Assembly: GCF_964019385.1 (NCBI RefSeq)
Contig: NC_088653.1
Span: 12,565,835-12,629,834, forward strand
Source of the DNA: Sycon ciliatum
Taxonomy: Eukaryota > Porifera > Calcarea > Leucosolenida > Sycettidae
Direction: 5' to 3'
DNA: 64,000 nucleotides
In this document: in pieces, positions 13,618 to 48,817 of the stretch
Layout: each line of letters opens with the position of its first letter
Numbering within the stretch: position 1 is the first letter of the stretch
The notes under the pieces: generated by a model
The model's database searches: none
What the model was told of the DNA's origin: nothing
What the model saw: only the letters and a program-made list of their open reading frames with translations
Position numbers and translations under genes: made by a program

Positions 13618-16425
13618 ATGGAGGAGAACCAAGGAAATATTGCTCCGAGTCGGACATCCAGCCATGGGCTATCTCCCGACGAAGAACCACGGTCGTGTTC
13701 CTCTTCCCAGGCTCATCATTCCCCTGCCTCGGTGGATTGCCAAGCTGATGATCCTGCATCGTCGTGCTCATCGACGCCGCGGACAAGCGCAACGCCGGTA
13801 TCGTTACCCGATGGTGTGAAGAGGTTAGCTGAGATGCTGAAGAAGCGCTACGTAAGTGCTAAAGTACAGATTGGCAAGGGGATGTGTGTAAAACCGAATA
13901 GGCGAGCGCTGGATAAGATCTTTGTGAATGTGGTTGTGATACCGCGCGAAGAACTGGCTTCGCTGAACGAACAAACTTTCTTCGGTTCCCAAAGCGATGT
14001 GCAGAAGTTGAGCCATGTGTTCTCGCGAGTCGCGGACAAAGTGCAGCACGTGCAACTGGCCAATATGTTTGACTTTGACGGGGAAGAACTTGATGAAGAC
14101 GAATCAGTTCGTGTATTGGCTGTTGCATGTGCTGGCGCTGGCAAGACGACCATATTCTTGTTGAAAGGTCCTATGGACTGGGCAAGAGGTCTGATCTGGC
14201 ATGAGTTTGACATTGTGGGTGCATTGGCGCTGCGTGAACCCAGTGTTCGACACGCAAGTGATATAGTTGAGCTGCTACGCTTGAGGCAGCTTGGCATTGT
14301 CGATCCGAAGGAGCAAAATGAAATTGCATCCTACATCCATGCCAACCCGCGGCGTCTTTGTCTCGTATTCGATGGCTTAGATGAAACGGTTCTTGACGAC
14401 TGTAGCGATTTTGTGCGTGGCATTATTTGCGGCAAGGAATTGAAAGGTGTTCGCTTGATTCTTACATCACGCCATTCGAAAGAAGTCATAAAACTGGCTC
14501 TCTCATGCCCATTTGACCGTCGCGTAGAAGTGCTGGGATTCACCAAGGACAATGTGCACGAATATGTAAACAATGTCCTCCCGTGCGAGCCGGCCAGCAA
14601 ATTGCTTGAACGCGTCAATTCTGATCCGAGTTTAGCGGCCATTATGCAAACGCCTTTCTTCACGGAGTCGACCTGCGACGTTTTCCGTACTTATGGCTCT
14701 GTTCCTTCGTCACTGTTCGGCATCTTCATGTCTTTGATCCTGAGTATCGTTCGACAGAACACTGAGAGTGCGTATCCAGACTGGCCGTCCGTTCCTCGTA
14801 TCTTGAAGGAGAGGATCCTGGAGTTGGGTCATTTTGCATTTCTGATGCTAGTTGGTAAGAAGGTGGTGTTCAGCGACCGTGACCTTGATGAACAGCAGGT
14901 ATCGAAGGAAAGTCGCTCACTTGGTCTTCTTGTGGCGTGCGAGTCACTGTCGCATCCATGCGTTGGTCAATGGCAGTTCAGCCATCTTTCGGTTCAAGAA
15001 TGCCTTGCTTCCCAGTACATTGCAGCCACTGTTCCGGATGCGAGTGACGTTAAATTCCTCGTGAGGCAGGTGGGAGCTTTGACTGGTCACTTGAGCACCT
15101 TTTGGTGCCTGCTTGCATCACAACTGGTTGCAGACGCGAAGGAAGCCTTAATTGCAGCGATTCTCACTCAGCCTGTTTCGGACGAGCAGGATATTCGCAA
15201 GCTGAAGGCATGTGAAAGTGTGACTCGTTTCCTTCGCTCTTCCGAGGACGATCTTCTGCTGGTGACAGAGGTTCTGTGTGAACATCTCGACGATTCGGCC
15301 GTCCAGAGTCTGGCTGCTTGCGTTCTCACTGATCTACTAGCGGACGGTGTGAGTGTGTCTCAGGCTATCGACGAAGTTCTTCCTCATTCTTTCGCTTCGT
15401 CATTGCAGGACTACGTTCGCGCTCTTCTGCGGCTGTGGCGGCGCAAAGTACCCCGCGCTAGCATCAGAATGCTATCTACCGCCTTGAAACCTATCAATCC
15501 CTATGCATCAACCCGCCTTCTTGAGTATTTCCATTCCAGGCCATCCACATCCCTTGACTTTGACCAATGTGCCTTGCACTCGCAAGAAGAGAAATCAGTC
15601 ATGACTGCTTCGGTATCAGATTCAGTTTCGGGTATGCACGAAATTTTCACACCTGTTCGCCGTCGACTGCTGTTACTCGCTTGCCTTGTGTATGCGCAGC
15701 CTGGAACGGATACAGGTGACGTGGCCAATGCTACACATTCACCCTCGCCTGCTCTAGAGGCAGCCTTCTTACACTATGGCTGCGACTTTAGCAGCTTTTG
15801 CCTTTCTTCAGCGCATTGCTACCTTCTATCATCCGTGATTTCAGACCATCACAAGTCTATCGGCACTATCTCCCTTCGCGCCTGCCAGCTAGACGATCGT
15901 GCATTTGAGCTACTGGCACCGGGACTTGTTAAGTGTCATGGATTATCGAAAGTCGACCTTTCAAGCAATGCACTAACAAACAATCTAGTGGCACACATCT
16001 GTAACGTGATCCGCACAAACCGTTCGACTTTGTACGTACTGAGCATACACGATCTGCAGTTGTCCTCATCTGGATACGCACAGTTGGTACCGGCAATAGT
16101 TAGTTGTCACCGTGTCAGCCAGTTGTGCATTGGTCATGTTCAGTGCCAGGACATCACCACCAATATTCTCATATGCCTGGTCATCCTGGCGTACTGCAAG
16201 CTGTTGTATAGCCCCGGGCTTCACTTTTGTATCGGTGATGAAGGTCTGGCTATGCTTTACCCCCTTTTGGTGTCAAGGCCACAGCTCGCATTTCAATTTC
16301 AGTTTGCAGGGCTATCATCATCAGGTGTATCAGTGATCAGGCGTGTTATGTCAGTGATCAATAGACACCTTGCCGCGTTAGATTTGTCTGGTCTATCCGA
16401 CATGCTAGAGGATCCTAGATCCTAG
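13618..16425 (+). CDS. NACHT-LRR (NLR) receptor, copy 1, truncated by insertion
   Basis: Intronless 935-codon frame from ATG 13618 (context GTGAAATGG, a good Kozak match; the same M-E-E-N-Q start is in all copies). Intracellular immune sensor of the NLR/STAND ATPase class by architecture. Residues 1-60 are Ser-rich and low complexity; ~61-155 is a region I do not recognise, not obviously CARD, death or TIR. The NACHT domain is ~165-320 with P-loop C-A-G-A-G-K-T-T, Walker B L-V-F-D-G-L-D-E and sensor-1 L-T-S-R. The winged-helix motif is F-S-H-L-S-V-Q-E-C. LRRs start near 745. A 107-bp insertion (16407-16513) puts TAG at 16423-16425, removing the last ~115 residues, about a third of the LRR block. 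It may still make a protein, or be a pseudogene. Confidence 0.88.
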   Translation: MEENQGNIAPSRTSSHGLSPDEEPRSCSSSQAHHSPASVDCQADDPASSCSSTPRTSATPVSLPDGVKRLAEMLKKRYVSAKVQIGKGMCVKPNRRALDKIFVNVVVIPREELASLNEQTFFGSQSDVQKLSHVFSRVADKVQHVQLANMFDFDGEELDEDESVRVLAVACAGAGKTTIFLLKGPMDWARGLIWHEFDIVGALALREPSVRHASDIVELLRLRQLGIVDPKEQNEIASYIHANPRRLCLVFDGLDETVLDDCSDFVRGIICGKELKGVRLILTSRHSKEVIKLALSCPFDRRVEVLGFTKDNVHEYVNNVLPCEPASKLLERVNSDPSLAAIMQTPFFTESTCDVFRTYGSVPSSLFGIFMSLILSIVRQNTESAYPDWPSVPRILKERILELGHFAFLMLVGKKVVFSDRDLDEQQVSKESRSLGLLVACESLSHPCVGQWQFSHLSVQECLASQYIAATVPDASDVKFLVRQVGALTGHLSTFWCLLASQLVADAKEALIAAILTQPVSDEQDIRKLKACESVTRFLRSSEDDLLLVTEVLCEHLDDSAVQSLAACVLTDLLADGVSVSQAIDEVLPHSFASSLQDYVRALLRLWRRKVPRASIRMLSTALKPINPYASTRLLEYFHSRPSTSLDFDQCALHSQEEKSVMTASVSDSVSGMHEIFTPVRRRLLLLACLVYAQPGTDTGDVANATHSPSPALEAAFLHYGCDFSSFCLSSAHCYLLSSVISDHHKSIGTISLRACQLDDRAFELLAPGLVKCHGLSKVDLSSNALTNNLVAHICNVIRTNRSTLYVLSIHDLQLSSSGYAQLVPAIVSCHRVSQLCIGHVQCQDITTNILICLVILAYCKLLYSPGLHFCIGDEGLAMLYPLLVSRPQLAFQFQFAGLSSSGVSVIRRVMSVINRHLAALDLSGLSDMLEDPRS

Positions 16426-16513
16426 AGGGTGGTGGCGTTCCCACGGCGGATGCGGAAAACTCGGCTTTCAGCCGAGTCTCACGCGAACCGTGAAATTTAT
16501 TTTTTTTATTTTT
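16407..16513. mobile_element. 107-bp retroposon-like insertion in the LRR region
   Basis: Flanked by a perfect 13-bp duplication TATCCGACATGCT (16394-16406 and 16514-16526). Copies 2 and 3 have a single site (with G for the first A). It contains stem-loops (ACTCGGC/GCCGAGT, TCACG/CGTGA) and ends in a T/A-rich tail TTTATTTTTTTTATTTTT. The long duplication and homopolymer-like tail suggest target-primed retroposition of a small structured RNA. Source RNA not identified. Insert plus one duplication is 120 bp, a multiple of three. Confidence 0.88.
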
Positions 16514-16860
16514 TATCCGACATGCTCCTATTCACTCTGGCACCAAGCATAGTGTTGTGTGAAGCATTGAAATTCCTGACAGTGCAGGATGGCACTCTCA
16601 CTTCCGAGTCGCTTCCTGTGCTTGCTAGTATTCTGCTATCGTGCCCTCTTCTCTGTTCTCTTGGTGTCGAACGCAGTACTGTATTCCTTCTTGAGAACGA
16701 CGACGAGGGGAGTATGCAGTTTGTCAGAGCTGTACGCAGCAGTGAGATGTTGAACACACTTGTAATGCCCCGTCGAGAGTTTGTGAATGATCGCCTGGCT
16801 GGGCTGCTTGCTAGTGTGGCTGCAGAAGTCGAGCGAGACCTGCGGATTGTATACCGATGA
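16426..16860 (+). pseudogene. Severed C-terminal LRR part of NLR copy 1
   Basis: Past the stop the same frame continues through the insert and, from the second target duplication on (16514), reads the normal NLR C-terminus (L-F-T-L-A-P-S-I-V-L-C ... ending E-R-D-L-R-I-V-Y-R, TGA 16858-16860). There is no other stop or frameshift, so the break is recent and a readthrough product would carry only a 40-residue insertion. Confidence 0.85.
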
Positions 16861-16881
16861 CTGTGTACGCTATTTGATACC

Positions 16882-17136
16882 ATGCCAGCCCTACCCTACA
16901 GTCTGGTGATGTGTAATGTAGACATTGCCAGCCCTACCCTACAGCCTGGTGATGTGGAATGTAGACCATGCCAGCCCTACCCTACAGTCTGGTGATGTGG
17001 AATGTAGACCATGCCAGCCCTACCCTACAGTCTGGTGATGTGGAATGTAGACCATGCCAGCCCTACCCTACAGTCTGGTGATGTGGAATGTAGACCATAC
17101 CAGCCCTACCCTACAGTCTGGTGGTGTGTAATGTAG
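16882..17136. repeat. 43-bp minisatellite, 6 copies (unit 2)
   Basis: Same unit as at 36-207, starting 22 bp after the original NLR copy 1 stop. One copy carries ATTGCC for ATGCC. Confidence 0.95.
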
Positions 17137-17341
17137 GCTGTAGGAGCACACAGACTGCACAGTATGTATATACATGTACATACTATACACTGAATGTACT
17201 GCATACACGTACATAGTACAGTATAGATAACACATGTTAGTCATCTCTCAGCATGTAGTATTGTCTGGAGTACAGTTATGTACGGCAACTTGTCCACCAT
17301 ATCTCCTTTGCCCAGGTGGCCTGCATCCTGTATGACCCTCT

Positions 17342-18287
<946 letters not shown>

Positions 18288-20435: not shown

Positions 20436-20627
20436 AAATGGCAAGACCCCTGGCAATGGTCCAGGTGGTCTGGTCATGGTTGGACTAACCTTTTGAACAT
20501 GAATACGTCATGATTACTGCTAAGGAGACCGTGTGTGCCCGCCATGTCAGACACGAAATAGGATAGGTCCGGACCAATTAAAAAATACTTTCCCTGACAT
20601 GGGCGCGTACGTGTGTGTATGGGGGAG

Positions 20628-20935: not shown

Positions 20936-20946
20936 ACATAGGTCTA

Positions 20947-21122: not shown

Positions 21123-21132
21123 TACTTGTACA

Positions 21133-21280: not shown

Positions 21281-21286
21281 GTATTA

Positions 21287-21585: not shown

Positions 21586-21589
21586 TATG

Positions 21590-26311: not shown

Positions 26312-26492
26312 CCGTATTTTTCGGAGTATAGTGCGCACCTTTGTATAACGCGCACCCCCAATCTTCATTGGGGGTGCGCACTTCAATCTTCATTGAAGTA
26401 CATGCATTTCACATTCGGAGCATAGTGCGCACCTGCGATTTAGGGCCTAAAATAGCACGTCTAAAGTGCGCACTATACTCCGGAAAATACGG
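26312..26492. mobile_element. 181-bp palindromic MITE (CCGTATTTTTCGG ends)
   Basis: Orthologue of 8731-8911 with intact ends (CCGTATTTTTCGGAG / CTCCGGAAAATACGG). Flanked by TA. Confidence 0.88.
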
Positions 26493-26536
26493 TATGCCTT
26501 GCTTGCCCTTGTTGTGCTATGTATTACGCTGTGTCT

Positions 26537-27502
26537 CCGCGGTGGTGTTGAGCACTGTCAGCACCGTGACTGGGTACATACTCCGCCGTGGTGTTGAGCA
26601 CTGTCAGCACCGTGACTGGGTACATACTCCACCGTGGTGTTGAGCACTGTCAGCACCGTGACTGGGTACATACTCCGCCGTGGTGTTGAGCACTGTCAGC
26701 ACCGTGACTGGGTACATACTCCGCCGTGGTGTTGAGCACTGTCAGCACCGTGACTGGGTACATACTCCGCCGTGGTGTTGAGCACTGTCAGCACCGTGAC
26801 TGGGTACATACTCCACCGTGGTGTTGAGCACTGTCAGCACCGTGACTGGGTACATACTCCGCCGTGGTGTTGAGCACTGTCAGCACCGTGACTGGGTACA
26901 TACTCCGCCGTGGTGTTGAGCACTGTCAGCACCGTGACTGGGTACATACTCCACCGTGGTGTTGAGCACTGTCAGCACCGTGACTGGGTACATACTCCGC
27001 TGTGGTGTTGAGCACTGTCAGCACCGTGACTGGGTACATACTCCGCCGTGGTGTTGAGCACTGTCAGCACCGTGACTGGGTACATACTCCGCCGTGGTGT
27101 TGAGCACTGTCAGCACCGTGACTGGGTACATACTCCGCCGTGGTGTTGAGCACTGTCAGCACCGTGACTGGGTACATACTCCGCCGTGGTGTTGAGCACT
27201 GTCAGCACCGTGACTGGGTACATACTCCGCCGTGGTGTTGAGCACTGTCAGCACCGTGACTGGGTACATACTCCACCGTGGTGTTGAGCACTGTCAGCAC
27301 CGTGACTGGGTACATACTCCGCTGTGGTGTTGAGCACTGTCAGCACCGTGACTGGGTACATACTCCGCCGTGGTGTTGAGCACTGTCAGCACCGTGACTG
27401 GGTACATACTCCGCCGTGGTGTTGAGCACTGTCAGCACCGTGACTGGGTACATACTCCGCCGTGGTGTTGAGCACTGTCAGCACCGTGACTGGGTACATA
27501 CT
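26537..27502. repeat. 46-bp minisatellite, 21 copies (unit 2)
   Basis: Exactly 966 bp, 21 x 46, with copies differing only at CCGCCG / CCACCG / CCGCTG. The near-identity points to recent expansion. Confidence 0.98.
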
Positions 27503-27603
27503 CCCCAGTGTAACTGACTTCACATAGAAAGTCACTTTAATAGCATTTATTTTAGTACTTTCCTAATATCAGGCATAGAGATACATAGTGTCCACTTTAG
27601 ATG

Positions 27604-27942
27604 CCTTTTTCTTAATTTCGTATTTAGCTCTTTTGGGCGTCATTATTTTCTTCTCATTATTTCGCACCAAGTTATTATTTGTGGTATTCTCTAGCTTCTG
27701 TTTGTTTTGCAGTTGTTCTTGTGCAAACCCCCCCCCCCCACACACACACATTTTTCGATGCCTAGTTGCAACGCTTACGCCGAGACCTCTGGTCGGTTGA
27801 GTTGCTCCCAGCACATCAGCACGTCGTCCCTACATCCCCTATGTTTTGTCCTTTTCCTCGTTTCTTTTTGTTCTCCACCTGTTTTCCAGTAGGGCTGTGT
27901 CAATAGTAAAAAATAAAAAAATAATAAAAAAAAAAATAAAAA
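27604..27942 (+). mobile_element. 339-bp retroposed segment with A-rich 3' end
   Basis: Flanked by the 5-bp duplication AGATG (27599-27603 and 27943-27947). Units 1, 3 and 4 have the uninterrupted CTTTAGATGTCCCGAG. The right end is about 45 bp of A/T-rich sequence (AAAAAATAAAAAAATAATAA). The body holds C(10)(CA)n and no open frame of note. Probably a LINE 3' end or other retroposed transcript. Confidence 0.82.
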
Positions 27943-29351: not shown

Positions 29352-29353
29352 TA

Positions 29354-30758: not shown

Positions 30759-33700
30759 ATGGAGGAGAACCAAGGAAATATTGCTCCGAGTCGGACATCC
30801 AGCCATGGGATATCTCCCGACGAAGAACCACGGTCGTGTTCCTCTTCCCAGGCTCATCATTCTCCTGCCTCGGTGGATTGCCAAGCTGATGATCCTGCAT
30901 CGTCGTGCTCATCGACGCCGCGGACAAGCGCAACGCCGGTATCGTTACCCGATGGTGTGAAGAGGTTAGCTGAGATGCTGAAGATGCGCTACGTAAGTGC
31001 TAAAGTACAGATTGGCAAGGGGATGGGTGTAAAACCGAATAGGCGAGCGCTGGATAAGATCTTTGTGAATGTGGTTGTGATACCGCGCGAAGAACTGGCT
31101 TCGCTGAACGAACAAACTTTCTTCGGTTCCCAAAGCGATGTGCAGAAGTTGAGCCATGTGTTCTCGCGAGTCGCGGACAAAGTGCAGCACGTGCAACTGG
31201 CCAATATGTTTGACTTTGACGGGGAAGAACTTGATGAAGACGAATCAGTTCGTGTATTGGCTGTTGCATGTGCTGGCGCTGGCAAGACGACCATATTCTT
31301 GTTGAAAGGTCCTATGGACTGGGCAAGAGGTCTGATCTGGCATGAGTTTGACATTGTGGGTGCATTGGCGCTGCGTGAACCCAGTGTTCAACACGCAAGT
31401 GATATAGTTGAGCTGCTACGCTTGAGGCAGCTTGGCATTGTCGATCCGAAGGAGCAAAATGAAATTGCATCCTACATCCATGCCAACCCGCGGCGTCTTT
31501 GTCTCGTATTCGATGGCTTAGATGAAATGGTTCTTGACGAGTGTAGCGATTTTGTGCGTGGCATTATTTTCGGCAAGGAATTGAAAGGTGTTCACTTGAT
31601 TCTTACATCACGCCATTCGAAAGAAGTCATAAAACTGGCTCTCTCATGCCCATTTGACCGTCGCGTAGAAGTGCTGGGATTCACCAAGGACAATGTGCAC
31701 GAATATGTAAACAATGTCCTCCCGTGCGAGCCGGCCAGCAAATTGCTTGAACGGGTCAATTCTGATCCGAGTTTAGCGGCCATTATGCAAACGCCTTTCT
31801 TCACGGAGTCGACCTGCGACGTTTTCCGTACTTCTGGCTCTGTTCCTTCATCACTGTTCGGCATCTTCATGTCTTTGATCCTGAGTATCGTTCGACAGAA
31901 CACTGAGAGTGCGTATCCAGACTGGCCGTCCGTTCCTCGTATCTTGAAGGAGAGGATCCTGGAGTTGGGTCATTTTGCATTTCTGATGCTAGTTGGTAAG
32001 AAGGTGGTGTTCAGCGACCGTGACCTTGATGAACAGCAGGTGTCGAAGGAAAGTCGCTCACTTGGTCTTCTTGTGGCGTGCGAGTCACTGTCGTATCCAT
32101 GCGTTGGTCAATGGCAGTTCAGCCATCTTTCGGTTCAAGAATGCCTTGCTTCCCAGTACATTGCAGCCACTGTTCCGGATGCGAGTGACGTTAAATTCCT
32201 CGTGAGGCAGGTGGGAGCTTTGACTGGTCACTTGAGCACTTTTTGGTGTCTGCTTGCATCACAACTGGTTGCAGACGCGAAGGAAGCCTTAATTGCAGCG
32301 ATTCTCACTCAGCCTGTTTCGGACGAGCAGGATATTCGCAAGCTGAAGGCATGTGAAAGTGTGACTCGTTTCTTTCGCTCTTCCGAGGACGATCTTCTGC
32401 TGGTGACAGAGGTTCTGTGTGAACATCTCGACGATTCGGCCGTCCAGAGTCTGGCTGCTTGCGTTCTCACTGATCTACTAGCGGACGGTGTGAGTGTGTC
32501 TCAGGCTATCGAAGAAGTTCTTCCTCATTCTTTCGCTTCGTCATTGCAGGACTACGTTCGCGCTCTTCTGCGGCTGTGGCGGCGCAAAGTACCCCGCGCT
32601 AGCATCAGAATGCTATCTACCGCCTTGAAACCTATCAATCCCTATGCATCAACCCGCCTTCTTGAGTATTTCCATTCCAGACCATCCACATCCCTTGACT
32701 CCGACCAATTGGCCTTGCACTCGCAAGAAGAGAACTCAGTCATGACTACTTCGTTATCAGATTCAGTTTCGGCTGTGAACGAAGTTCTCACACCTGTTCG
32801 CCGTCAACTGCTGTTACTTGCTTGCCGTGTGTATGCGCAGCCTGGAACGGATACAGGTGACGTGGCCAATGCTGCACATTCACCCTCGCCTGCTCTAGAG
32901 GCAGCCTTCTCACACTATGGCTGCGACTTTAGCAGGCTTTGCCTTTCTTCGGCGGATTGGTACCTTCTATCATCCGTGATTTCAGACCATCACAAGTCTA
33001 TCGGCACTATCTCCCTTCGCGCCTGCCAGCTAGATGATCGTGCATTTGAGCTACTGGCACCGGGACTTGTTCAGTGTCGTGGATTATGGGAAGTCGACAT
33101 TTCATATAATGCACTAACAAACAATCTAGTGGCACTCATCTGTAACGTGATCCGCACGAACCGTTCAACTTTGCGCTCACTGAACATAGATGAACTGCAG
33201 ATGTCCTCATTTGGATACGCACAGTTGGTACCGGCAATAGTTAGTTGTCACCGTATCACCCACTTGTACATGGGTCATGTTCAGTGCCAGGATATCACCA
33301 CCAATATTCTCATATGCCTGGTCATCCTGGCGTCCTGCAAGCTGCTGCATAACCCCGGTCTGCACTTTCATGTCTACGATGAAGGTCTGTCCATGCTGTA
33401 CCCCCTCTTGGTGTCACGGAAACGCCTCGCATTGGAATTTCAATGTGCAGGGCTATCATCATCGGGTGTATCAGTGATCAGGCGTGTTATCACAGTGAAC
33501 CATGGACACCTTTCCGTGTTAGTTCTGACTGGTCTGTCCGACATGCTCCTATTCACTCTGGCACCAAGCATAGTGTTGTGTAAAGCATTGAAAGTGCTGC
33601 GCGCGGGTAATGGCACTCTCACTTCCGAGTCGCTTCCTGTGCTTGCTAGTATTCTACTAGAATGCCCTCTTCTCCGTAGTCTTGGTGTCACTGACAGCAC

Positions 33701-33878
33701 TGTATTCTGTCTTAAGAACGACGATGAGAGGAGTGGGCAGTTTGTCAGAGCTGTACGCAGGAGTGAGAAGTTGGAAATGCTTCTAATGCCCCGTCGAGAG
33801 TTTGTGAATGATCGCCTGGCCGGGCTGATTGCTAGTGTGGCTGCAGTAGTCGAGCGTGACCTGCGGATTGTGTACTAA
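30759..33878 (+). CDS. NACHT-LRR (NLR) receptor, copy 2, intact
   Basis: Single-exon 1039-codon frame from ATG 30759 to TAA 33876-33878. The start matches copies 1 and 3; the frame runs upstream only to a non-ATG codon at 30714. Predicted cytosolic NLR sensor: Ser-rich N-terminus (1-60), unrecognised region (~61-155), NACHT (~165-320: C-A-G-A-G-K-T-T, F-D-G-L-D-E, L-T-S-R), winged-helix motif F-S-H-L-S-V-Q-E-C near 455, helical middle, LRRs ~745-1035. The P-loop has Ala where the first Gly of GxxxxGK[ST] is usual, in all copies. Against copy 3, about 15 differences in the first 745 residues but about 57 in the last ~293 (hand count). The NACHT here differs at M-V-L-D-E-C (T-V-L-D-D-C in the others). 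Ligand, partners and N-terminal effector type are unknown. Confidence 0.93.
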   Translation: MEENQGNIAPSRTSSHGISPDEEPRSCSSSQAHHSPASVDCQADDPASSCSSTPRTSATPVSLPDGVKRLAEMLKMRYVSAKVQIGKGMGVKPNRRALDKIFVNVVVIPREELASLNEQTFFGSQSDVQKLSHVFSRVADKVQHVQLANMFDFDGEELDEDESVRVLAVACAGAGKTTIFLLKGPMDWARGLIWHEFDIVGALALREPSVQHASDIVELLRLRQLGIVDPKEQNEIASYIHANPRRLCLVFDGLDEMVLDECSDFVRGIIFGKELKGVHLILTSRHSKEVIKLALSCPFDRRVEVLGFTKDNVHEYVNNVLPCEPASKLLERVNSDPSLAAIMQTPFFTESTCDVFRTSGSVPSSLFGIFMSLILSIVRQNTESAYPDWPSVPRILKERILELGHFAFLMLVGKKVVFSDRDLDEQQVSKESRSLGLLVACESLSYPCVGQWQFSHLSVQECLASQYIAATVPDASDVKFLVRQVGALTGHLSTFWCLLASQLVADAKEALIAAILTQPVSDEQDIRKLKACESVTRFFRSSEDDLLLVTEVLCEHLDDSAVQSLAACVLTDLLADGVSVSQAIEEVLPHSFASSLQDYVRALLRLWRRKVPRASIRMLSTALKPINPYASTRLLEYFHSRPSTSLDSDQLALHSQEENSVMTTSLSDSVSAVNEVLTPVRRQLLLLACRVYAQPGTDTGDVANAAHSPSPALEAAFSHYGCDFSRLCLSSADWYLLSSVISDHHKSIGTISLRACQLDDRAFELLAPGLVQCRGLWEVDISYNALTNNLVALICNVIRTNRSTLRSLNIDELQMSSFGYAQLVPAIVSCHRITHLYMGHVQCQDITTNILICLVILASCKLLHNPGLHFHVYDEGLSMLYPLLVSRKRLALEFQCAGLSSSGVSVIRRVITVNHGHLSVLVLTGLSDMLLFTLAPSIVLCKALKVLRAGNGTLTSESLPVLASILLECPLLRSLGVTDSTVFCLKNDDERSGQFVRAVRRSEKLEMLLMPRREFVNDRLAGLIASVAAVVERDLRIVY

Positions 33879-39482: not shown

Positions 39483-39825
39483 TACTTGTCATGGGCAACA
39501 TGCCAGTAATGACTTGCTGCTTGTATGTACATTGGTGTGAGTGTATTCTGTTACAACGAACTTCCGCTATAAAGAACGAATTCTTCTGCACAATGGTGTT
39601 CGTTATATCAGGAGGCGAGTGGGAAGTGCTCTGTCAGTTTTTGTGGCATTGCACAAGTACTGTAGCGAGATTATGCAAAACGACCGATTGAGATGATTGA
39701 TTTCTGTAACTGACTTCACAGAAGAACAAAGCAAGCAAGACTAGTTTGTATCTACTCGAGTAATCCTGGATTTATTCAAAGTCACATATCAGTGAATAAT
39801 GGCAAGACTAGCGACAAACAGTTAA

Positions 39826-40686
39826 AGGGGAAGTATACCCTAAAATCAAATTTTCACCAGTTGTAGTCTTCTGGGTGCTGAGTCGAATGGTCTTGGTCCG
39901 AGGAAGCTGCGACGCTCCCTTCCTACTTGAATCCCAATCGAACTCGCGCACTTCCACCGAAACTGGGTGACTGCGCCCTACTAGATGGGGATTTGTATGC
40001 AAAATGTCACTAAAAGCGCCATTTCGTTCTTATAAAAGCTCGGATGACCGCGATTGGCCCATATGTTGTAGTCTTTTGGACGCTGAGTCGACTGGTTTTG
40101 GTCCGAAAAGGCTGCGATGCAGCGTTCCTCCTTTATTCCCAATCGAACATGGTTGAACAAGTGGTCACGTGCTCCTGGGTGCCCAAATCACCTGGTCACC
40201 GCGCCAGCAGGCGACAACTTTCACACCAAGGTTCAACTCGAGTTCAACTCGAGTGACAGGACTGCACCCAAAAAAGGTCAAACAGGCTAGTAAGTTGTAC
40301 CCTGCAGGCACGGTGACCAGGTGACTGGTGTACGCAGGAGCACGTGACCGCCTGTTCAACCATGTTCGATTGGGAATAAAGGAGGAACGCTGCATCGCAG
40401 CCTTTTCGGACCAAAACCAGTCGACTCAGCGTCCAAAAGACTACAACATATGGGCCAATGGCGGTCATCCGTGCTTTTATAAGAACGAAATGGCGCTTTT
40501 AGTGACATTTTGCATACAAATCCCCATCTCGTAGGGCGCAGTCACCCAGTTTCGGTGGAAGTGCGCGAGTTCGATTGGGATTCAAGTAGGAAGGGAGCGC
40601 CTCAGCTTCCTCGGACCAAGACCATTCGACTCAGCACCCCGAAGACTACAACTGGTGAAAATTTGATTTTAGGGTATACTTCCCCT
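39826..40686. mobile_element. 861-bp foldback with TTAA duplication (piggyBac-like MITE)
   Basis: TTAA at 39822-39825 and 40687-40690 flanks AGGGGAAGTATACCC and its complement. The empty site CAGTTAACTAGCC is in unit 4 (near 60716). Nearly the whole element is one inverted repeat with ~400-bp arms meeting near 40230-40260. TTAA is the piggyBac target; no transposase is present, so it is non-autonomous. Confidence 0.9.
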
Positions 40687-40752
40687 TTAACTAGCCTTGC
40701 TTTCCCTTGTTGTGCTGTGTATCACGCGCTCTGCCTTGACTGGGTACATACT

Positions 40753-41304: not shown

Positions 41305-42652
41305 CCCCAGTGTAACTGACTTCACATAGAAAGTCACTTTAATAGCATTAATTTTAGTACTTTCCTAATATCAGGCATAGAGATACGTAGTGTCCACTTT
41401 AGATGTCCCGAGAGGTGAGGTTGTGTCGGTATAAGCAATCTCCACAGTGTCTTACGGACTGTATTCTTATCCATTTAGTGCGCAGGTTCCCTTGGACCTG
41501 TAGTTGCACATTTTGACCTCCTGCTGCAGTTGGTTGGCTGGGGAGGGGGGGGGGGGGTGTATCGGTGTCCGGGGCAGTAAGAGGATTGGCTTCGGTGGTG
41601 GTGTTAGCTGGTGCACACGTTGTGTGGTATGTTTCTGTGTGTCCTTGAATCCTGGTTTGACTGTATTGTCCAATGGTCTAGCCAGTATCGTCTTCGTCAT
41701 ACATCCGCCAACTACCTTCACAGCTGAGACTTTCAGCTCGTGCTTGCCTTGGTTGAGCTCACCTTCCCCTCCTTATGTTACTTCTATAGCTTAGAACCTT
41801 CCAAGTTGGAAGGCTGTTGGAGTGCGCATCCAAGAAGTGCCAGAGCTGATTGGAAGTTAGTTGTAGAACGTCAGTACCGTTGGTCAGTGTCGTGCAATTT
41901 TATCGCATATTAAAGCTGATTACCAAGTACATGAAAACCGGGTTGTGTTTGCGGACATTATATTTTGTACTAAATTATAGCCTGCCTTGCAGTTCATTGG
42001 TCCTTTTTCCTTCCTAAAAACAGTTACTGTATGTTCATGATGCAGACTGCAAGCATAGAGCTGGAGGTGAAAACACACTAACGTGGTCATTATCATTTAC
42101 GTGTAGCCATGTCATGGCCTACACTAGTAGTAGTAGACGCATGCCACGGCGAATAATAGTTAGTGGAAGTAACAGTTGTTGGTGGAGCACAGCCACAGGA
42201 GACAAAATGCGCTTCATTCAAACACTCAGATCACCTATCCACGGCCAAAGGCAAAGCAGACAGCTGTATCGTCTCGGCCGGGGACGCTCCACACGTGACA
42301 CCATGTACATCACTGCAGTACTGCGATGTACTGCGATGTAGACAACCACTTGCCTTGTGACTTGGGAAGCACAGTCAGTAGAGTAGGCATGCACATCATG
42401 GTAGGGCGGTACGCAGTTACTGCCAGGACTGGATCCGAGTCACCAAGACCGAGTCCAGGAGGAGACCGAGGCGAGGGCAGATCGAGGCAGCGAAGTAAAG
42501 ACAGCTCGACGGCGCGGCCCCCAGAACGGACAGCATGTAGACCAGGTAGACAGACTGCATACACTGACCTGTACATGTAGTACAGTGACAGACTCACTCA
42601 GTTTCAGTAGTCATTGCCATTGCATTGGTACTACTACTAGTACTAGTACTAG
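41305..42652. other. Shared non-coding spacer (unit 3)
   Basis: As 9531-10435 plus the ~300 bp that unit 1 lost. No gene supported. Ends in an ACTAGT microsatellite. Confidence 0.55.
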
Positions 42653-42657
42653 TACTA

Positions 42658-44185
42658 GGCACTTCAGCCGGTTTTTTCCAGTCGGGTTTCTCCCAGGTTT
42701 AGCATCGTAAATCGACAGTGGTGGATATCACAAGGTCACACACAAAATTTCATTGAAATCCACAAAGACCCAAGTGAGATATGAAGGGTTGAAGAGAGGC
42801 AATTGCATAAGGCGAAAACAATACAATTTGTGGTACCAACAGCATCCCCAAAGTGTTATCAGTGGATATAGTTACAAAACTTCAGAGTGGCATTTTCGAA
42901 CACACGGCTCTCACAAACACCAAAAAGTGTTTATGGATGAACAAAATACTGATCAAAGTTCACAATAGTCCAGAATACGGCAATTGTTACCACAATCACC
43001 ATAGCAACCCCATAGCAACCCATAGTAACCCATGGCAACCCCATAGTAACAGCTTCGGTTTGCTGTGAAATTAGCTAATATCGACATAGAGTTCACCAGC
43101 AGGCCACTGCTGCTGCTAAATGCTATAAAAGACATTCTTCTGGCACTCAGAAGGTAAGCACACCGAGATAGCATACGCAAAATGAATTGAAAGCGGAATT
43201 TCTGCATACACAACGCACATGCACACGTTAACGCCACTTCAAACAGAGGTTCGATGTTGGAAACCAGTTTCTCTATTGGCAGCTCCTTTGTACCAGTAGA
43301 AAGTGCAAACTAAATTACTTTGGACCTTCTGCAGCAGAACAAACTTGCAGAAGTGAAGCTGCGAATTGAGAGCAAGGCGTTCGTCAGTGACAAAGAACAT
43401 TTTTGAGAGCTGCTCCTGTGCTGCCTCCTTCGAGATCCAGAGCCCACCTACAGCCGTGATCTCCGTCAAAGTCTCCTTTTTCTTTTGATGTTGTTCTTTC
43501 TTGCGTGTGCTACCTGCCTCCTTCTCCTTCACTTGCTCCATACAGCAGTCATGAATTGTCTGCTGGCGAGCCTCGAGATTCTCACAGAATTTTGGTGCAG
43601 CGCGCCTGGATGCGTCGATCAAAGTGTCCCTCTCATCGGCGGATTTCTCCTGTAGCCACTGTGCCGTTTGATTGTTCGTAAACATCAGTAGCCGTTCAAG
43701 CACAACAGGGTCAAACATTGGCTTTCAGCACGCTTCGAAAACTGGCTCAGGTAGGACGACGACGCATCTTTCTCCTCCGCCTCAAGCCCTTCTCCTCACT
43801 ATCTACGTCCATATTTCCTCCTTGCGCAGCTATGCGCAAACCCTGGTGAACAAGAACTCAACTGTTTCTGAATGGAAACACGACGCTGAAGACGATAGGC
43901 AATGTTTCCAACGCGTACTAACAACATTTCCTTGTGAAAAAACTCTTTGCTGGAAGTGTACATGATCTGCAAGTCGCAAAAATGTACGCACTATGACCAT
44001 GATGACGTATGTAGGCTCTACTGAAAGCTGAACGCCAGAGCAGCACGATGCACTGAACTACAGGCCCGTACAACGAAGCATGGCGCGTACCTGTACAGTT
44101 TTGCACAGGCACTTGAGTGATACCACGCAAGTACGCACTCTCATCTTATAAAATTTGACAGGTCTTGTCACGTGACTGAAGTGCC
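42658..44185. mobile_element. 1.5-kb TIR element (GGCACTTCAG ends), unit 3
   Basis: Ten-base inverted ends GGCACTTCAG / CTGAAGTGCC, apparently with TACTA duplicated (42653-42657, 44186-44190), although the site is inside an ACTAGT microsatellite. Absent in the other units. Carries a minus-strand open frame at 43239-43718. Superfamily unassigned. Confidence 0.75.
43239..43718 (-). CDS. Unrecognised 159-aa ORF inside the unit-3 TIR element
   Basis: Open frame with an ATG start and no internal stop, one of few such frames outside the NLRs. The middle is Lys/Glu-rich and probably helical (E-Q-V-K-E-K-E-A-G-S-T-R-K-K-E-Q-H-Q-K-K-K-E), followed by L-W-I-S-K-E-A-A-Q-E-Q-L-S-K and L-H-F-C-K-F-V-L-L-Q-K-V. 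From memory the last part resembles C-terminal regions of transposon-linked invertebrate proteins (…QI.F.K.VL…). I cannot name a family or find a DDE or RNase-H core. It may be a fragment of a larger element protein. Confidence 0.4.
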   Translation of the reverse strand: MFDPVVLERLLMFTNNQTAQWLQEKSADERDTLIDASRRAAPKFCENLEARQQTIHDCCMEQVKEKEAGSTRKKEQHQKKKETLTEITAVGGLWISKEAAQEQLSKMFFVTDERLALNSQLHFCKFVLLQKVQSNLVCTFYWYKGAANRETGFQHRTSV

Positions 44186-44196
44186 TACTAGTACTA

Positions 44197-45090
44197 CAGT
44201 AAAACCTGTAACTAAAGACCACCGTGACTAGCGACCAGCCTGGTACTACCGACCACTTCACCAGGCACGGACGGTCTCATATTCAAAATGCACTGTGACT
44301 AGCGACTACCTGCTGAACGCGACCAGCGACCGCCCTTTCTTGCCCCAAAGACGATTATTGACCCGTAACTAGCGACCGCGACGTACGAAATCAAATGTTG
44401 CTCGAAGCTCCTTCTTGAAAATTTGCTGATTTTCCACGGTCCTGAAAGGACTCTTTCGATACTACAGCTGAACAAATGAACACAGGTCATTTTGACTGTG
44501 GAATCGGTGTGGACTGCACTACACCTGTCCAAATTTCAAGCTCTGTCAAGAATAAACACGATAGGAAACGTGATCGATGTTGCTACTCGGAGGAGAAGCG
44601 AAGACAGAGCGGCTCTGACACCCCAGTCATACAGACGAATCGACGATGGCATCAAGGAATCCAGAAACAAAGCAGCACCGCAAGGTCCTGATGCTGAAGG
44701 ATCGCGTTCAAGCAATCGAGAAGTTACAACAAGGACAGTCGGTACGATTGATCACATGAACAAATTCGAAGCCCAGCGTAAAAACGAAACTTCTACAGGG
44801 AACGTTTGACTCCTGGCTCAGAAGTAGCAGCTGAATTTGATGTCTGCAAAAAGTAGTCTTCTCCTTCTGTCTCTCTCCGTCTCTGGTCTCTCTCTCCAAG
44901 TGTTGTTTGACCTGAAAAAGAATGGCAATGCGCAAGTCCTGGGGAATCGTAATAGCTGCATTTTGACATACATATCATATACGGGATCCATATATGGTCA
45001 TGCAGTGCAAACCTCTAACTAAAGACCACCTGCCACTAAAGACCGCTTTTGCTGGCACCAAGGGGTGGTCGTTAGTTACAGGTTTTACTG
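44197..45090. mobile_element. 894-bp TIR element B, unit 3
   Basis: Same family as 28404-29351 (ends CAGTAAAACCTGTAACTAA / complement, TA flanks) but at a different site, next to the GGCACTTCAG element. Two independent insertions in paralogous units show recent family activity. Confidence 0.9.
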
Positions 45091-45307
45091 TAGTAGTAGC
45101 AGTGCGCTGCCAGGACCATGACCATTGATGACGACTTGGTAGATCTTCCCAAAATCTACACGTAAAACCCTGCATGCACGGCAGCAGCAGAGGGACAGTC
45201 TAGACTATGTGGACAGTCTACAATTACCGGTCTACGTCTACCACTACCAGGTCTACCAGGTCTACCAAGGCTCAACCGGACCAAACTATGTTACACATAC
45301 AGTACTA

Positions 45308-45412
45308 CAGTGTTGGCTGAAATCCGATCCCCCTACTGGCCCTAGCGTCTCGTACGAATCGCTAACGCGGCTAGCGCACCGCTAGGGGGTCGGATTTCAG
45401 TTGCCAACACTG
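45308..45412. repeat. Conserved hairpin upstream of NLR copy 3
   Basis: Same palindrome as 13241-13336, with a small CTGGCC insertion near the first CCCCCTA. Confidence 0.88.
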
Positions 45413-45510
45413 TACAAAAGTACAAGTACAAGCCGTAAAGGTCTGTGACCAAAACATTAGACTCATCATCAAGAGGCAAGACATCGTCTGAAAAGTCATT
45501 ATTCAGGAAA

Positions 45511-45517
45511 TGACTCA
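45511..45517 (+). promoter_or_regulatory. Candidate AP-1 site TGACTCA
   Basis: Same site and position as upstream of copies 1 and 2. Confidence 0.35.
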
Positions 45518-45694
45518 AGACGAACAGAGAGCTAGTCGCACATTGCGCATGGCATAGATCTATTATAACGGCGATTCCGTGTTCAGCCTAAACAAAAGTC
45601 TTCCCTGGCCCGCAAACTATTTTGAGTTTGCTGGGCTAGGGGCTTTGCGACTGTCGTGTGCTCGCTGCCTTTCCACTCGATTGACCTCAGTGAA

Positions 45695-48600
45695 ATGGAG
45701 GAGAACCAAGGAAATATTGCTCCGAGTCGGACATCCAGCCATGGGCTATCTCCCGACGAAGAACCACGGTCGTGTTCCTCTTCCCAGGCTCATCATTCCC
45801 CTGCCTCGGTGGATTGCCAAGCTGATGATCCTGCATCGTCGTGCTCATCGACGCCGCGGACACGCGCAACGCCGGTATCGTTACCCGATGGTGTGAAGAG
45901 GTTAGCTGAGATGCTGAAGAAGCGCTACGTAAGTGCTAAAGTACAGATTGGCAAGGGGATGGGTGTAAAACCGAATAGGCGAGCGCTGGATAAGATCTTT
46001 GTGAATGTGGTTGTGATACCGCGCGAAGAACTGGCTTCGCTGAACGAACAAACTTTCTTCGGTTCCCAAAGCGATGTGCAGAAGTTGAGCCATGTGTTCT
46101 CGCGAGTCGCGGACAAAGTGCAGCACGTGCAACTGGCCAATATGTTTGACTTTGACGGGGAAGAACTTGATGAAGACGAATCAGTTCGTGTATTGGCTGT
46201 TGCATGTGCTGGCGCTGGCAAGACGACCATATTCTTGTTGAAAGGTCCTATGGACTGGGCAAGGGGTCTGATCTGGCATGAGTTTGACATTGTGGGTGCA
46301 TTGGCGCTGCGTGAACCCAGTGTTCGACACGCAAGTGATATAGTTGAGCTGCTACGCTTGAGGCAGCTTGGCATTGTCGATCCGAAGGAGCAAAATGAAA
46401 TTGCATCCTACATCCATGCCAACCCGCGGCGTCTTTGTCTCGTATTTGATGGCTTAGATGAAACGGTTCTTGACGACTGTAGCGATTTTGTGCGTGGCAT
46501 TATTTGCGGCAAGGAATTGAAAGGTGTTCGCTTGATTCTTACATCACGCCATTCGAAAGAAGTCATAAAACTGGCTCTCTCATGCCCATTTGACCGTCGC
46601 GTAGAAGTGCTGGGATTCACCAAGGACAATGTGCACGAATATGTAAACAATGTCCTCCCGTGCGAGCCGGCCAGCAAATTGCTTGAACGCGTCAATTCTG
46701 ATCCGAGTTTAGCGGCCATTATGCAAACGCCTTTCTTCACGGAGTCGACCTGCGACGTTTTCCGTACTTATGGCTCTGTTCCTTCGTCACTGTTCGGCAT
46801 CTTCATGTCTTTGATCCTGAGTATCGTTCGACAGAACACTGAGAGTGCGTATCCAGACTGGCCGTCCGTTCCTCGTATCTTGAAGGAGAGGATCCTGGAG
46901 TTGGGTCATTTTGCATTTCTGATGCTAGTTGGTAAGAAGGTGGTGTTCAGCGACCGTGACCTTGATGAACAGCAGGTGTCGAAGGAAAGTCGCTCACTTG
47001 GTCTTCTTGTGGCGTGCGAGTCACTGTCGTATCCATGCGTTGGTCAATGGCAGTTCAGCCATCTTTCGGTTCAAGAATGCCTTGCTTCCCAGTACATTGC
47101 AGCCACTGTTCCGGATGCGAGTGACGTTAAATTCCTCGTGAGGCAGGTGGGAGCTTTGACTGGTCACTTGAGCACTTTTTGGTGTCTGCTTGCATCACAA
47201 CTGGTTGCAGACGCGAAGGAAGCCTTAATTGCATCGATTCTCACTCAGCCTGTTTCGGACGAGCAGGATATTCGCAAGCTGAAGGCATGTGAAAGTGTGA
47301 CTCGTTTCTTTCGCTCTTCCGAGGACGATCTTCTGCTGGTGACAGAGGTTCTGTGTGAACATCTCGACGATTCGGCCGTCCAGAGTCTGGCTGCTTGCGT
47401 TCTCACTGATCTACTAGCGGACGGTGTGAGTGTGTCTCAGGCTATCGAAGAAGTTCTTCCTCATTCTTTCGCTTCGTCATTGCAGGACTACGTTCGCGCT
47501 CTTCTGCGGCTGTGGCGGCGCAAAGTACCCCGCGCTAGCATCAGAATGCTATCTACCGCCTTGAAACCTATCAATCCCTATGCATCAACCCGCCTTCTTG
47601 AGTATTTCCATTCCAGACCATCCACATCCCTTGACTCCGACCAATTGGCCTTGCACTCGCAAGAAGAGAACTCAGTCATGACTACTTCGTTATCAGATTC
47701 AGTTTCGGCTGTGCACGAAATTCTCACACCTGTTCGCCGTCAACTGCTGTTACTTGCTTGCCGTGTGTATGCGCAGCCTGGAACGGATACAGGTGACGTG
47801 GCCAATGCTACACATTCACCCTCGCCTGCTCTAGAGGCAGCCTTCTCACACTATGGCTGCGACTTTAGCAGGTTTTGCCTTTCTTCGGCGGATTGCTACC
47901 TTCTATCATCCGTGATTTCAGACCATCACAAGTCTATCGGCCGCATCTCCCTTCGCGAGTGCCAGCTAGACGATCGTGCATTTGAGCTACTGGCATTGGG
48001 ACTTGTTCAGTGTCGTGGATTATCGGAAGTCGACCTTTCATATAATGCACTAACAAACAATCTAGTGGCACTCATGTGTAACGTGATCCGCGCAAACCAT
48101 TCAACTTTGGACGTACTGAACATACATGATCTGCAGTTGTCCTCATCTGGATACGCACAGTTGGTACCGACAATAGTTAGTTGTCACCGTATCAGCAGGC
48201 TGGCCATTGGTCATTTTCAGTGCCAGGATATCACCACAAATATTCTCATATGCCTGGTCATCCTGGCGTACTGCAAGCTGCTGCATAACCCCGGTCTGTA
48301 CTTTCATGTCGGTGATGAAGGTCTGTCCATGCTGTACCCCCGCTTGGTGTCACGGCCACGGTTATCACTGCAATTTCAGTTTGCAGGGCTATCATCATCG
48401 GGTGTATCAGTGATCAGGCGTGTTATCACAGAGAACCATGGACACCTTGCCGCGTTAGTTCTGACTCGTCTGTCCGACATGCTCCTATTCACTCTGGCAC
48501 CAAGCATAGTGTTGTGTAAAGCATTGAAAGTGCTGTCAATGCAATCTTGCTCTCTCACTTCCGAATCGCTTCCTGTGCTTGCTGGTATTCTGCTATCATG

Positions 48601-48817
48601 CCCTCTTCTCGAAACTCTTCGTGTCGGTGACAATACTGTATTCCGCCTTGAGAACGACGAGGAGGGGAGTATGCAGTTTGTCAGAGCTGTACGCAGGAGT
48701 GAGAAGTTGAGCACACTTATAATGCCCCGTCGAGAGTTTGTGAATGATCGCCTGGCCGGGCTGATTGCTAGTGTGGCTGCAGAAGTTGAGCATGACCTGT
48801 TGATTGTGTACTGTTGA
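45695..48817 (+). CDS. NACHT-LRR (NLR) receptor, copy 3, intact
   Basis: Single-exon 1040-codon frame, ATG 45695 to TGA 48815-48817. Residue map: Ser-rich 1-60; unrecognised 61-155; acidic D-G-E-E-L-D-E-D-E at ~154-162; NACHT with P-loop G173-A-G-K-T-T178, Walker B L247-C-L-V-F-D-G-L-D-E256 and sensor-1 Arg285 in L-T-S-R; G-F-T-K-D-N-V-H-E-Y at ~307-316, a position typical of NACHT proteins; winged-helix motif F454-S-H-L-S-V-Q-E-C; LRRs from ~748 with strands near 776-782, 805-813, 833-840, 944-952, 972-980 and 1005-1010. No signal peptide or membrane segment is evident. Upstream hairpin and downstream minisatellite as in the other copies. Against copy 1, about 6 differences in residues 1-640. 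Function as an immune sensor is inferred from family architecture. Confidence 0.93.
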   Translation: MEENQGNIAPSRTSSHGLSPDEEPRSCSSSQAHHSPASVDCQADDPASSCSSTPRTRATPVSLPDGVKRLAEMLKKRYVSAKVQIGKGMGVKPNRRALDKIFVNVVVIPREELASLNEQTFFGSQSDVQKLSHVFSRVADKVQHVQLANMFDFDGEELDEDESVRVLAVACAGAGKTTIFLLKGPMDWARGLIWHEFDIVGALALREPSVRHASDIVELLRLRQLGIVDPKEQNEIASYIHANPRRLCLVFDGLDETVLDDCSDFVRGIICGKELKGVRLILTSRHSKEVIKLALSCPFDRRVEVLGFTKDNVHEYVNNVLPCEPASKLLERVNSDPSLAAIMQTPFFTESTCDVFRTYGSVPSSLFGIFMSLILSIVRQNTESAYPDWPSVPRILKERILELGHFAFLMLVGKKVVFSDRDLDEQQVSKESRSLGLLVACESLSYPCVGQWQFSHLSVQECLASQYIAATVPDASDVKFLVRQVGALTGHLSTFWCLLASQLVADAKEALIASILTQPVSDEQDIRKLKACESVTRFFRSSEDDLLLVTEVLCEHLDDSAVQSLAACVLTDLLADGVSVSQAIEEVLPHSFASSLQDYVRALLRLWRRKVPRASIRMLSTALKPINPYASTRLLEYFHSRPSTSLDSDQLALHSQEENSVMTTSLSDSVSAVHEILTPVRRQLLLLACRVYAQPGTDTGDVANATHSPSPALEAAFSHYGCDFSRFCLSSADCYLLSSVISDHHKSIGRISLRECQLDDRAFELLALGLVQCRGLSEVDLSYNALTNNLVALMCNVIRANHSTLDVLNIHDLQLSSSGYAQLVPTIVSCHRISRLAIGHFQCQDITTNILICLVILAYCKLLHNPGLYFHVGDEGLSMLYPRLVSRPRLSLQFQFAGLSSSGVSVIRRVITENHGHLAALVLTRLSDMLLFTLAPSIVLCKALKVLSMQSCSLTSESLPVLAGILLSCPLLETLRVGDNTVFRLENDEEGSMQFVRAVRRSEKLSTLIMPRREFVNDRLAGLIASVAAEVEHDLLIVYC

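Follow-up and report, generated by a model that had tools for sequence, protein, structure and literature searches.

Diversifying selection at the predicted concave face of the leucine-rich repeats in tandem NACHT-LRR genes of the calcareous sponge Sycon ciliatum

Here, we analysed a window of 64,000 nucleotides (C12:12565835-12629834) from the 538-Mb genome of the calcareous sponge Sycon ciliatum, represented by one assembly of one genome. Judged from their sequences, three long open reading frames (ORFs) in this window, designated w1, w2, and w3, are animal NLRs, combining a NACHT domain with leucine-rich repeats (LRRs), in tandem clusters. Codon-level comparison of gene copies shows strong diversifying selection at the five outward positions of each LRR strand, which make up the predicted concave face; this selection has acted in several gene groups independently. 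In our best reading, these genes form a germline NLR repertoire, in which a conserved engine is combined with a diversified concave face that is re-assorted by short gene conversion. We consider diversifying selection on the concave face, aided by conversion, highly probable.

The encoded proteins appear to consist of a short N-terminal region, the NACHT domain, a winged-helix-like part, and about ten ribonuclease-inhibitor-type LRRs. NACHT (PF05729) was detected in all three copies (E ~1e-11, 45 bits versus a cut-off of 26.7), and a match to NOD2_WH scored slightly below the Pfam cut-off. The LRRs were not called by Pfam (best match LRR_4, E 0.29); in phmmer/hmmsearch comparisons, this part matched LRRs of NLRP14 and ribonuclease inhibitor. 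A family profile matched NLRs of solved structure in their NACHT and LRR regions, as well as ribonuclease inhibitors; the best match was 5irm (rabbit NOD2; E 5e-34). In an AlphaFold2 model built on 16 aligned sequences (overall predicted local distance difference test score [pLDDT] of 67), the LRR part alternates between strand and helix, with pLDDT values of 70-96 per ten-residue block, mostly at least 85, and residues 1-221 score below 50. It is on these sequence profiles and this model that the predicted LRR fold is based. CARD, DEATH, and PYD gave no Pfam hit at E<=1 in the three ORFs, although they may lie on an upstream exon, nor did FISNA, B30.2/SPRY, or NB-ARC, in whose place NACHT is found. 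According to the accessible text of PMC12909245, a NACHT-LRR protein without an N-terminal effector domain is still a bona fide NLR (NLRX). Such a protein might produce its output through an N-terminal function that escaped detection, through an upstream exon, or by pairing with a helper NLR.

Coding sequences were taken as single exons starting from MEEN, with the start methionine inferred; the NCBI models P0005 and P0007 are identical over their full length to the single ORFs of L028 and L037, respectively, which are sibling genes. When the genome was searched with w3, 45 matches were obtained. An array on C12 holds 18 copies over 11.846-12.644 Mb, 17 of them on the plus strand and L025 on the minus strand, and three of the 18 are interrupted (L023, L024, which is w1, and L027). 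A lone copy, L026 (84%), lies at C12:6.04 Mb, and more distant groups were found on C12, C2, C5, C8, C13, and C1 at 58-67% and on C8 at 35-42%. Genome-wide, the NACHT family comprises at least 102 matches, from 452 first-look candidates.

The ten LRR modules of w3 begin at residues 748, 776, 805, 833, 863, 889, 918, 944, 972, and 1005, numbered from MEEN (P0003 numbering is obtained by adding 23). Module positions 2, 3, 5, 7, and 8 of the LxxLxLxx motif were defined as x positions, five per module and 50 in total; the AlphaFold2 strands fall within positions 3-7 of each motif. For the LRR of 16 C12 copies, the log likelihood (lnL) rose from -5372.92 under site model M1a to -5197.31 under M2a, a gain of 176, with 17% of codons in the M2a class at an omega of 6.9, and from -5386.00 under M7 to -5198.04 under M8, a gain of 188. 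For the NACHT part of 16 C12 copies, M1a and M2a yielded -5140.16 and -5137.92, a gain of 2.2. Five LRR segments, each analysed with its own tree, all favoured M2a (2dlnL 23, 70, 59, 94, and 33). The same result was obtained in the C8 cluster, which is 62-64% identical to w3 and unlinked to the C12 array: in the LRR of eight copies, M2a exceeded M1a by 103 (2dlnL 205), with 17% of sites at an omega of 13.6.

Sites with a posterior above 0.95 were concentrated at the x positions in both clusters: in C12, they comprised 32 of 50 x positions versus 8 of 243 sites in the remainder of the LRR, and in C8, 23 of 50 versus 4 of 241. These counts refer to a register in which modules 5 and 6 had been moved from their by-eye starts at 865 and 890 to 863 and 889 after the AlphaFold2 strands were seen, at which point the selected sites were already known; in the first, by-eye register the counts were 29/50 versus 11/243 and 21/50 versus 6/241, respectively. 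The first register was also used for entropy, the sites shared by C12 and C8, the mutation spectrum, and the x-pentamers. Twenty-one sites were selected in both clusters, out of 40 in C12 and 27 in C8 (298 compared; Fisher p 3e-16). Over the 26 module positions scored, mean entropy was 0.80-1.23 at positions 2, 3, 5, 7, and 8 versus 0.00-0.48 elsewhere in C12, and 0.36-1.02 versus 0.00-0.28 in C8. In C12, 47 of 50 x codons vary in amino acid.

Independently of any tree, ratios of nonsynonymous to synonymous divergence (dN/dS) after NG86 were above 1 at the x positions of all six gene groups (Table 1), and x columns with silent change only numbered 0-3 of 50 across these groups. The cleanest group is C11, with an LRR dS of 0.026-0.035 versus a NACHT dS of 0.051 and an x dN of 0.27; here, amino acid differences are present at 28 of 50 x codons, and silent-only x codons are absent. 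An earlier note on this DNA had placed the change at the x positions of LxxLxLxx, had likened it to a ligand-binding face under diversification, and had listed positive selection as one possible mechanism. The placement and the diversification of the predicted face are borne out by the site models, by the tree-free ratios at positions set by motif and model, and by selection of the same positions in the unlinked C8 cluster, and positive selection is strongly supported by the site models and the tree-free ratios. The margin is narrow with regard to two of the limits that the note had set for this interpretation. The ratio over the whole LRR, for which it had named 1 as the limit, is about 1 by NG86 (dN>dS in 77 of 153 pairs, which include near-duplicate copies) and 1.39 under M0; silent divergence, which according to the note might explain the contrast by an ordinary older duplication, is higher in the LRR than in NACHT in most groups, but insufficient for the replacements at x positions.

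Table 1. Tree-free NG86 dN/dS in six groups of gene copies
Group	x positions	Other LRR	NACHT codons 150-640	Remarks
C12	2.43	0.69	0.30	x bootstrap 1.75-3.74
C8	3.01	0.87	0.65	x bootstrap 1.79-5.99
C13+C1	1.73	0.45	0.15	3 copies
MAEK group (C12, C2, C5)	1.60	0.53	0.26	4 copies
C11	7.76	0.89	0.20	4 copies of at least 11
C8b	6.07	0.56	0.48	2 copies of many

The composition of the samples differed between analyses. L010 and L015, near- or fully identical to L009 and L014, were dropped from the models and pooled counts and kept in the 153 pairs; the partial copy L027 was dropped from all codon counts. The tails of L023 and L024 were cut after the frame break (not in the 153-pair means), and both copies were excluded from the recombination test described below and from the simulation. 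L025 and L026 were left out of the pooled C12 counts and the recombination test and included in the 153 pairs, the site and segment models, and the entropy and shared-site analyses. L044, which has an in-frame stop, was left out of the C13+C1 count, and L032 and L037 out of the pooled C8 counts, L032 being part of the C8 site model.

We further show, from comparisons among the copies, that several of them share LRR blocks in a mosaic pattern; the blocks measure about 70-180 bp, which corresponds to roughly one to two modules. For codons 641-1035, the pairwise homoplasy index (PHI) test gave p 0.001 in C12 and C8 alike, the lowest value attainable with 1000 permutations, and for NACHT it gave p 0.48 and 0.49, C8 offering just 15 informative sites there. 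Across codons 641-1035 of C12, r2 fell from 0.28 to about 0.16 within 180 bp; linkage disequilibrium on silent sites alone displayed no clear trend. Individual pairs illustrate the mosaic. L011 and L024 are nearly the same throughout codons 748-835, with 1 difference in the first 108 nt and 0 of 156 nt in 784-835, and beyond this shared block they differ at 47 of 285 nt in codons 836-935. L011 and L009 differ at 48 of 531 nt in codons 748-924, 2 of 180 in 925-984, and 6 of 159 in 985-1037. L021 and L022, 0.2% apart in the 5' part, are distinguished by a patch at codons 804-818 and by their tails (1035-1054). Across the ten modules, x-pentamers reappear in varied combinations, and 13 of 14 complete faces are distinct, the repeat being P0004, which equals L017. 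A GENECONV-like run test, weaker than PHI, was globally significant for 5 of 78 pairs in the C12 LRR, 7 of 78 in codons 641-930, and 1 of 21 in C8.

The 5' half of the genes is far more uniform, in agreement with hand counts in the earlier note. Between w2 and w3, we found 15 differences in the first 745 residues (10 in codons 1-640 and 5 in 641-745; about 15 reported) and 56 in the 294 residues of the LRR part (about 57 of about 293 reported), with 10 silent-only codons there (about 11 reported) and 24 multi-base codons, in line with its statement that many codons carry two or three base changes; w1 and w3 differ at 6 of the first 640 residues, as it had stated approximately. In a divergence profile of w1, w2, and w3 in 150-bp bins, the part that begins about 320 bp before the gene and reaches codon ~640 differed by 0-3.3%, and codons 744-1040 formed an island of 4-22%; the bin directly past the stop differed by 4-8% with gaps, followed by 0-1.3% for 300 bp (48976-49275). 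The similar flanks are short, with sequence before ~45376 largely unalignable and differences of 7-33% in the 3' bins after 49276. For the whole array, median pair differences in the first 500 bp downstream were 1-6%. Fourteen of 91 array pairs are at most 1% apart in codons 1-640, and 11 of these 14 are at least 8% apart in LRR codons 748-935; the 21 pairs in C8 differ by 0.6-1.2% in codons 1-640 versus 5.6-10.1% in the LRR. NACHT distance predicts LRR distance only partly (Spearman 0.42 in C12, 0.07 in C8). Averaged over 153 pairs of 18 copies by NG86, dS and dN were 0.075 and 0.023 in codons 1-640, and 0.153 and 0.140 in the LRR. These comparisons show the NACHT half to be under purifying selection (omega 0.30 in C12) and, within C12 and C8, homogenised or recently duplicated in addition.

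Several observations weigh against diversifying selection as the full account of this contrast or limit how its tests can be read. Silent divergence between w2 and w3 amounts to 5 differences per 466 sites in codons 1-640 and 19.7 per 235 from codon 746 to the end, so that dS climbs about eight-fold, from 0.011 to 0.089, which the earlier note had overlooked. Part of the w2/w3 contrast is therefore homogenisation of the 5' half, and the raw contrast of 2% to 19% overstates selection because silent divergence of the LRR is raised too. This rise is strong in C12, C8, and C8b, mild in C13+C1 and MAEK, and absent from C11. The site models were of the GY94 type, run with our own code and a capped optimiser rather than with PAML, and their posteriors are naive empirical Bayes. 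In a simulation without positive selection (five mosaic trees, 14 copies, 12 replicates), 8 of the 12 null replicates exceeded 5.99, i.e., recombination inflates the site test, which makes chi-square p values unreliable for the segment tests and for C8 (unsimulated). C8 NACHT itself (M0 omega 0.83) has 1.1% of its sites in a weakly supported positive class (2dlnL 10.4), and in C12 NACHT, r2 also drops, from 0.53 to 0.31 within 90 bp. In C8b, represented by one pair, x versus NACHT columns did not differ significantly (p 0.085), x versus other LRR columns giving p 0.013. Finally, placement on a concave face is based on the LRR motif and a predicted model with an overall pLDDT of 67. Recombination as the sole source of the site-model signal was nevertheless rejected, based on the segment trees, the tree-free counts, and the size of the effect in the simulation, where null replicates yielded 2dlnL of 0.4-23.3 and the observed C12 LRR on the same 14 copies yielded 325 (a gain of 163 lnL), far over the simulated range.

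The rise in dS between w2 and w3 is also an argument for concerted evolution alone, in which conversion or recent duplication would have homogenised the 5' half and the LRR would be older and relaxed, free of diversifying selection. The array pairs with near-identical 5' halves and divergent LRRs fit this explanation, as do the smaller silent contrasts of L025 (0.13-0.17 versus 0.10-0.31, with L026 set apart) and of L026 (0.20-0.29 versus 0.32-0.46). However, relaxation alone cannot lift dN/dS above 1, and the x positions reach 1.6-7.8 in six groups; in C11, moreover, the LRR is silently no older than NACHT, and its x dN is nonetheless 0.27. Sequence comparison thus contradicts concerted evolution as the sole cause, for which we see very little chance, and it stands as a component next to diversifying selection.

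Targeted mutation had also been raised in the earlier note; at LRR x codons, it might act in the germline or soma, by adenine mutagenesis of the retroelement type or by a deaminase. Change is indeed concentrated in x codons, multi-base codons such as the 24 between w2 and w3 make up a larger share of differing codons at x (0.39 in C12 and 0.45 in C8) than in the other LRR codons (0.16), and silent change in C8 peaks in the first four module positions (0.067 versus 0-0.032). The spectrum at x codons, however, is mixed and neither adenine- nor deaminase-like. Among 59 two-state C12 columns in the first register (40 columns with three or four bases were left unclassed), all six base-pair classes occur (AC 12, CG 10, CT 11, AT 3, AG 16, GT 7). 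Columns without A account for 28 of 59 in C12 and 21 of 49 in C8, so adenine specificity is absent. Transitions account for 27 of 59 at x versus 85 of 159 in NACHT of C12, and silent change in amino acid-identical codons of C12 (0.040-0.101 along the module) has no peak at the strand. Targeted mutation is unsupported by these data, and we regard it as extremely improbable.

In a cassette system, orphan LRR pieces would act as donors for conversion, similar to the assembly of lamprey VLRs or to loci for antigenic variation. The short tracts would suit such a system, as would the L021 patch at codons 804-818, where three codons are absent from all other copies examined and look as though an unsampled donor had supplied them. 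The system is nevertheless hardly credible, since every LRR-only genome match of at least 60% identity belongs either to a full-length NLR ORF or to pieces of the interrupted copies L023, L024, and L027, and none of the 122 LRR matches (from the best 135 of 213 candidates scored) was an orphan donor cassette. From the earlier proposal of gene conversion from donor cassettes, exchange between copies can thus be retained, with full-length sibling genes in place of cassettes as donors.

The features of the window are listed in Table 2. The frame of w1 is interrupted by about 120 bp between 13-bp direct repeats (16394-16406 and 16514-16526), which bring in the stop at 16423-16425; w1 shares 94% amino acid identity with w3 over query residues 1-954. 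With its GC-rich, hairpin-like centre and T-rich 3' end, the inserted sequence (16394-16526) looks like a short retroposed element. The L027 frame closes with the same residues as that of w1, so the insertion is probably older than the w1/L027 duplication. A 46-bp satellite forms arrays in two of the tandem units (26380-27645 and from 40596), with up to 99% similarity between its copies, and repeats spaced by 44 bp occur at other places in the window. An inverted repeat at 39820-40692 has 401-nt arms, 96% complementary, and a 71-nt spacer. On the minus strand, an RVT_1 reverse transcriptase domain extends across two overlapping frames (57719-58919), the remains of a retroelement; on the plus strand, an ORF at 10806-11384 has a sub-threshold match to QRICH1 (E 0.003), and at 55782-57122, with strong G skew, all three plus frames are open for 352-446 codons, the longest without a Pfam match. 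A Pfam scan of 15 other ORFs in the window detected no immune domain, Rfam gave no match in the window at gathering scores, and the window contains no tRNA.

Table 2. Features of the NACHT-LRR genes in the window (positions relative to its first nucleotide)
Feature	Position	Strand	Remarks
w0 (L012), next upstream copy, last codons	1..22	+	full gene C12:12562665-12565856, by coordinates
w1 (L024), NACHT-LRR copy	13618..16860	+	frame closes at in-frame stop 16423-16425 within insertion; old stop ~16858-16860
LRR half of w1	15859..16860	+	interrupted by insertion
Insertion in w1 LRR	16407..16526	+	carries one copy of 13-bp direct repeat; read from sequence
w2 (L013), NACHT-LRR copy	30759..33878	+	intact single ORF, 1039 aa from inferred Met
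LRR half of w2	33000..33878	+	
w3 (L009), NACHT-LRR copy	45695..48817	+	intact single ORF, 1040 aa from inferred Met
NACHT domain of w3	46208..46657	+	P0003 residues 195-344; Pfam PF05729 E 1.5e-11, 44.8 bits (cut-off 26.7)
LRR half of w3	47936..48817	+	predicted ten modules; LRR motif, AlphaFold2 model, profile matches

Among the gene copies, four pairs of near-identical loci (L014/L015, L009/L010, L032/L033, and L036/L037), 80-182 kb apart, share 99.6-99.97% identity over their longest aligned piece (3.8-6.1 kb), and both C8 pairs among them (L032/L033 and L036/L037) are spaced by ~84 kb; these pairs are either recent segmental duplications or haplotypes retained in the assembly. The C11 and C8b copies fetched (L046-L051) end in an acidic tail after the LRRs (DEGDSESEE or DEGESESEE), which C12 copies lack. 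NACHT matches on C14 (0.2-2.8 Mb) belong to a different, very long architecture, with open frames that exceed 2000 codons and reach 2793. P0004 was considered as an allele and rejected, being identical to L017 over its 970 residues. For the ENA protein P0009, not assignable to an individual or haplotype, the closest of the fetched copies is L042; the two proteins differ at 9 of 635 residues within 1-640, and 21 of their 50 x residues are different.

Variation of the concave LRR face is a property that the Sycon genes have in common with lamprey variable lymphocyte receptors (VLRs), which are extracellular and somatically assembled; the Sycon genes, in contrast, are germline single ORFs with a NACHT domain. 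Plant NLRs carry NB-ARC. By analogy, the nearest functional parallel is provided by the highly variable NLRs (hvNLRs) of plants, which the sponge genes would resemble in their way of working without being hvNLRs. As far as the accessible text of PMC8226289 goes, the concave face of Arabidopsis hvNLRs, their predicted binding site, has high amino acid entropy at the x positions of LxxLxLxx, and close paralogues exchange information, both as in Sycon; their status was set on 62 ecotypes of a plant, whereas the Sycon genes are NACHT genes of an animal compared as paralogues within one genome. The NLR-B30.2 genes of zebrafish are likewise a large, clustered animal NLR family, with conversion acting unequally on NACHT and the C-terminal domain; the accessible text of PMC4852459 assigns positive selection to B30.2 and calls the LRRs not particularly variable, unlike in Sycon, where a B30.2 hit is lacking and the selected surface is the predicted LRR concave face. 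The het-d/het-e genes of Podospora, according to the accessible text of PMC1805685, also encode NACHT proteins with positively selected repeat-surface residues and swapping of repeat units within the family, but are fungal allorecognition genes with near-identical WD repeats. The LRR modules of one Sycon gene, by contrast, differ from one another, and exchange takes place at equivalent positions of paralogues.

For Amphimedon queenslandica, an expanded NLR repertoire was reportedly described by Yuen in 2014. The expansion in this species is also attributed to Degnan 2015, as cited in the accessible text of PMC7308585, which reads high LRR polymorphism as a sign of specificity, and Dysidea avara likewise possesses an expanded repertoire (PMC12909245, accessible text). 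Expanded NACHT-LRR repertoires are thus common to Sycon and other sponges, and both these expansions and LRR polymorphism as a hint of specificity are already in print. The main text of the Dysidea avara paper, as accessible, does not contain the terms "selection", "tandem", "gene conversion", or "Sycon", and the accessible text of PMC12909245 and PMC7308585 holds no site-level analysis of sponge LRRs. Among the titles listed in the literature searched, none dealt with Sycon NLRs or with concave-face selection in animal NLRs, although a published selection analysis for sponges may exist.

Taken as a germline repertoire under diversifying selection aided by conversion, the genes suggest the following mechanism. 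The concave face of each copy would bind a different non-self, or modified-self, ligand in the cytoplasm, and the shared NACHT engine would feed every copy into the same oligomer and output. New specificities would arise by point change and short ectopic gene conversion and would be retained by selection favouring diversity of the germline repertoire. The analogy with plant hvNLRs makes it probable that the concave face binds its ligands directly. It is tempting to speculate, although we think it rather unlikely, that the NLRs form a genome-wide, combinatorial set of antibody-like intracellular receptors, in which each cluster shares one engine, siblings re-assort concave-face modules so quickly that individuals, possibly even cell lineages, differ in their sets of paratopes for microbial and perhaps allogeneic recognition.

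It has long been asked whether animals without lymphocytes can recognise targets specifically by means of diverse germline receptors. Selection of the predicted LRR concave face at the same structural positions across unlinked sponge gene groups differs from zebrafish NLRs, in which, by the accessible text of PMC4852459, the LRR is not the selected surface. Our analysis maps a predicted paratope at the level of single residues and provides matched receptors that differ chiefly in this part, which opens the way to direct tests of ligand binding, of variation between individuals, and of allorecognition in a sponge. It also offers a candidate animal counterpart to plant hvNLRs.

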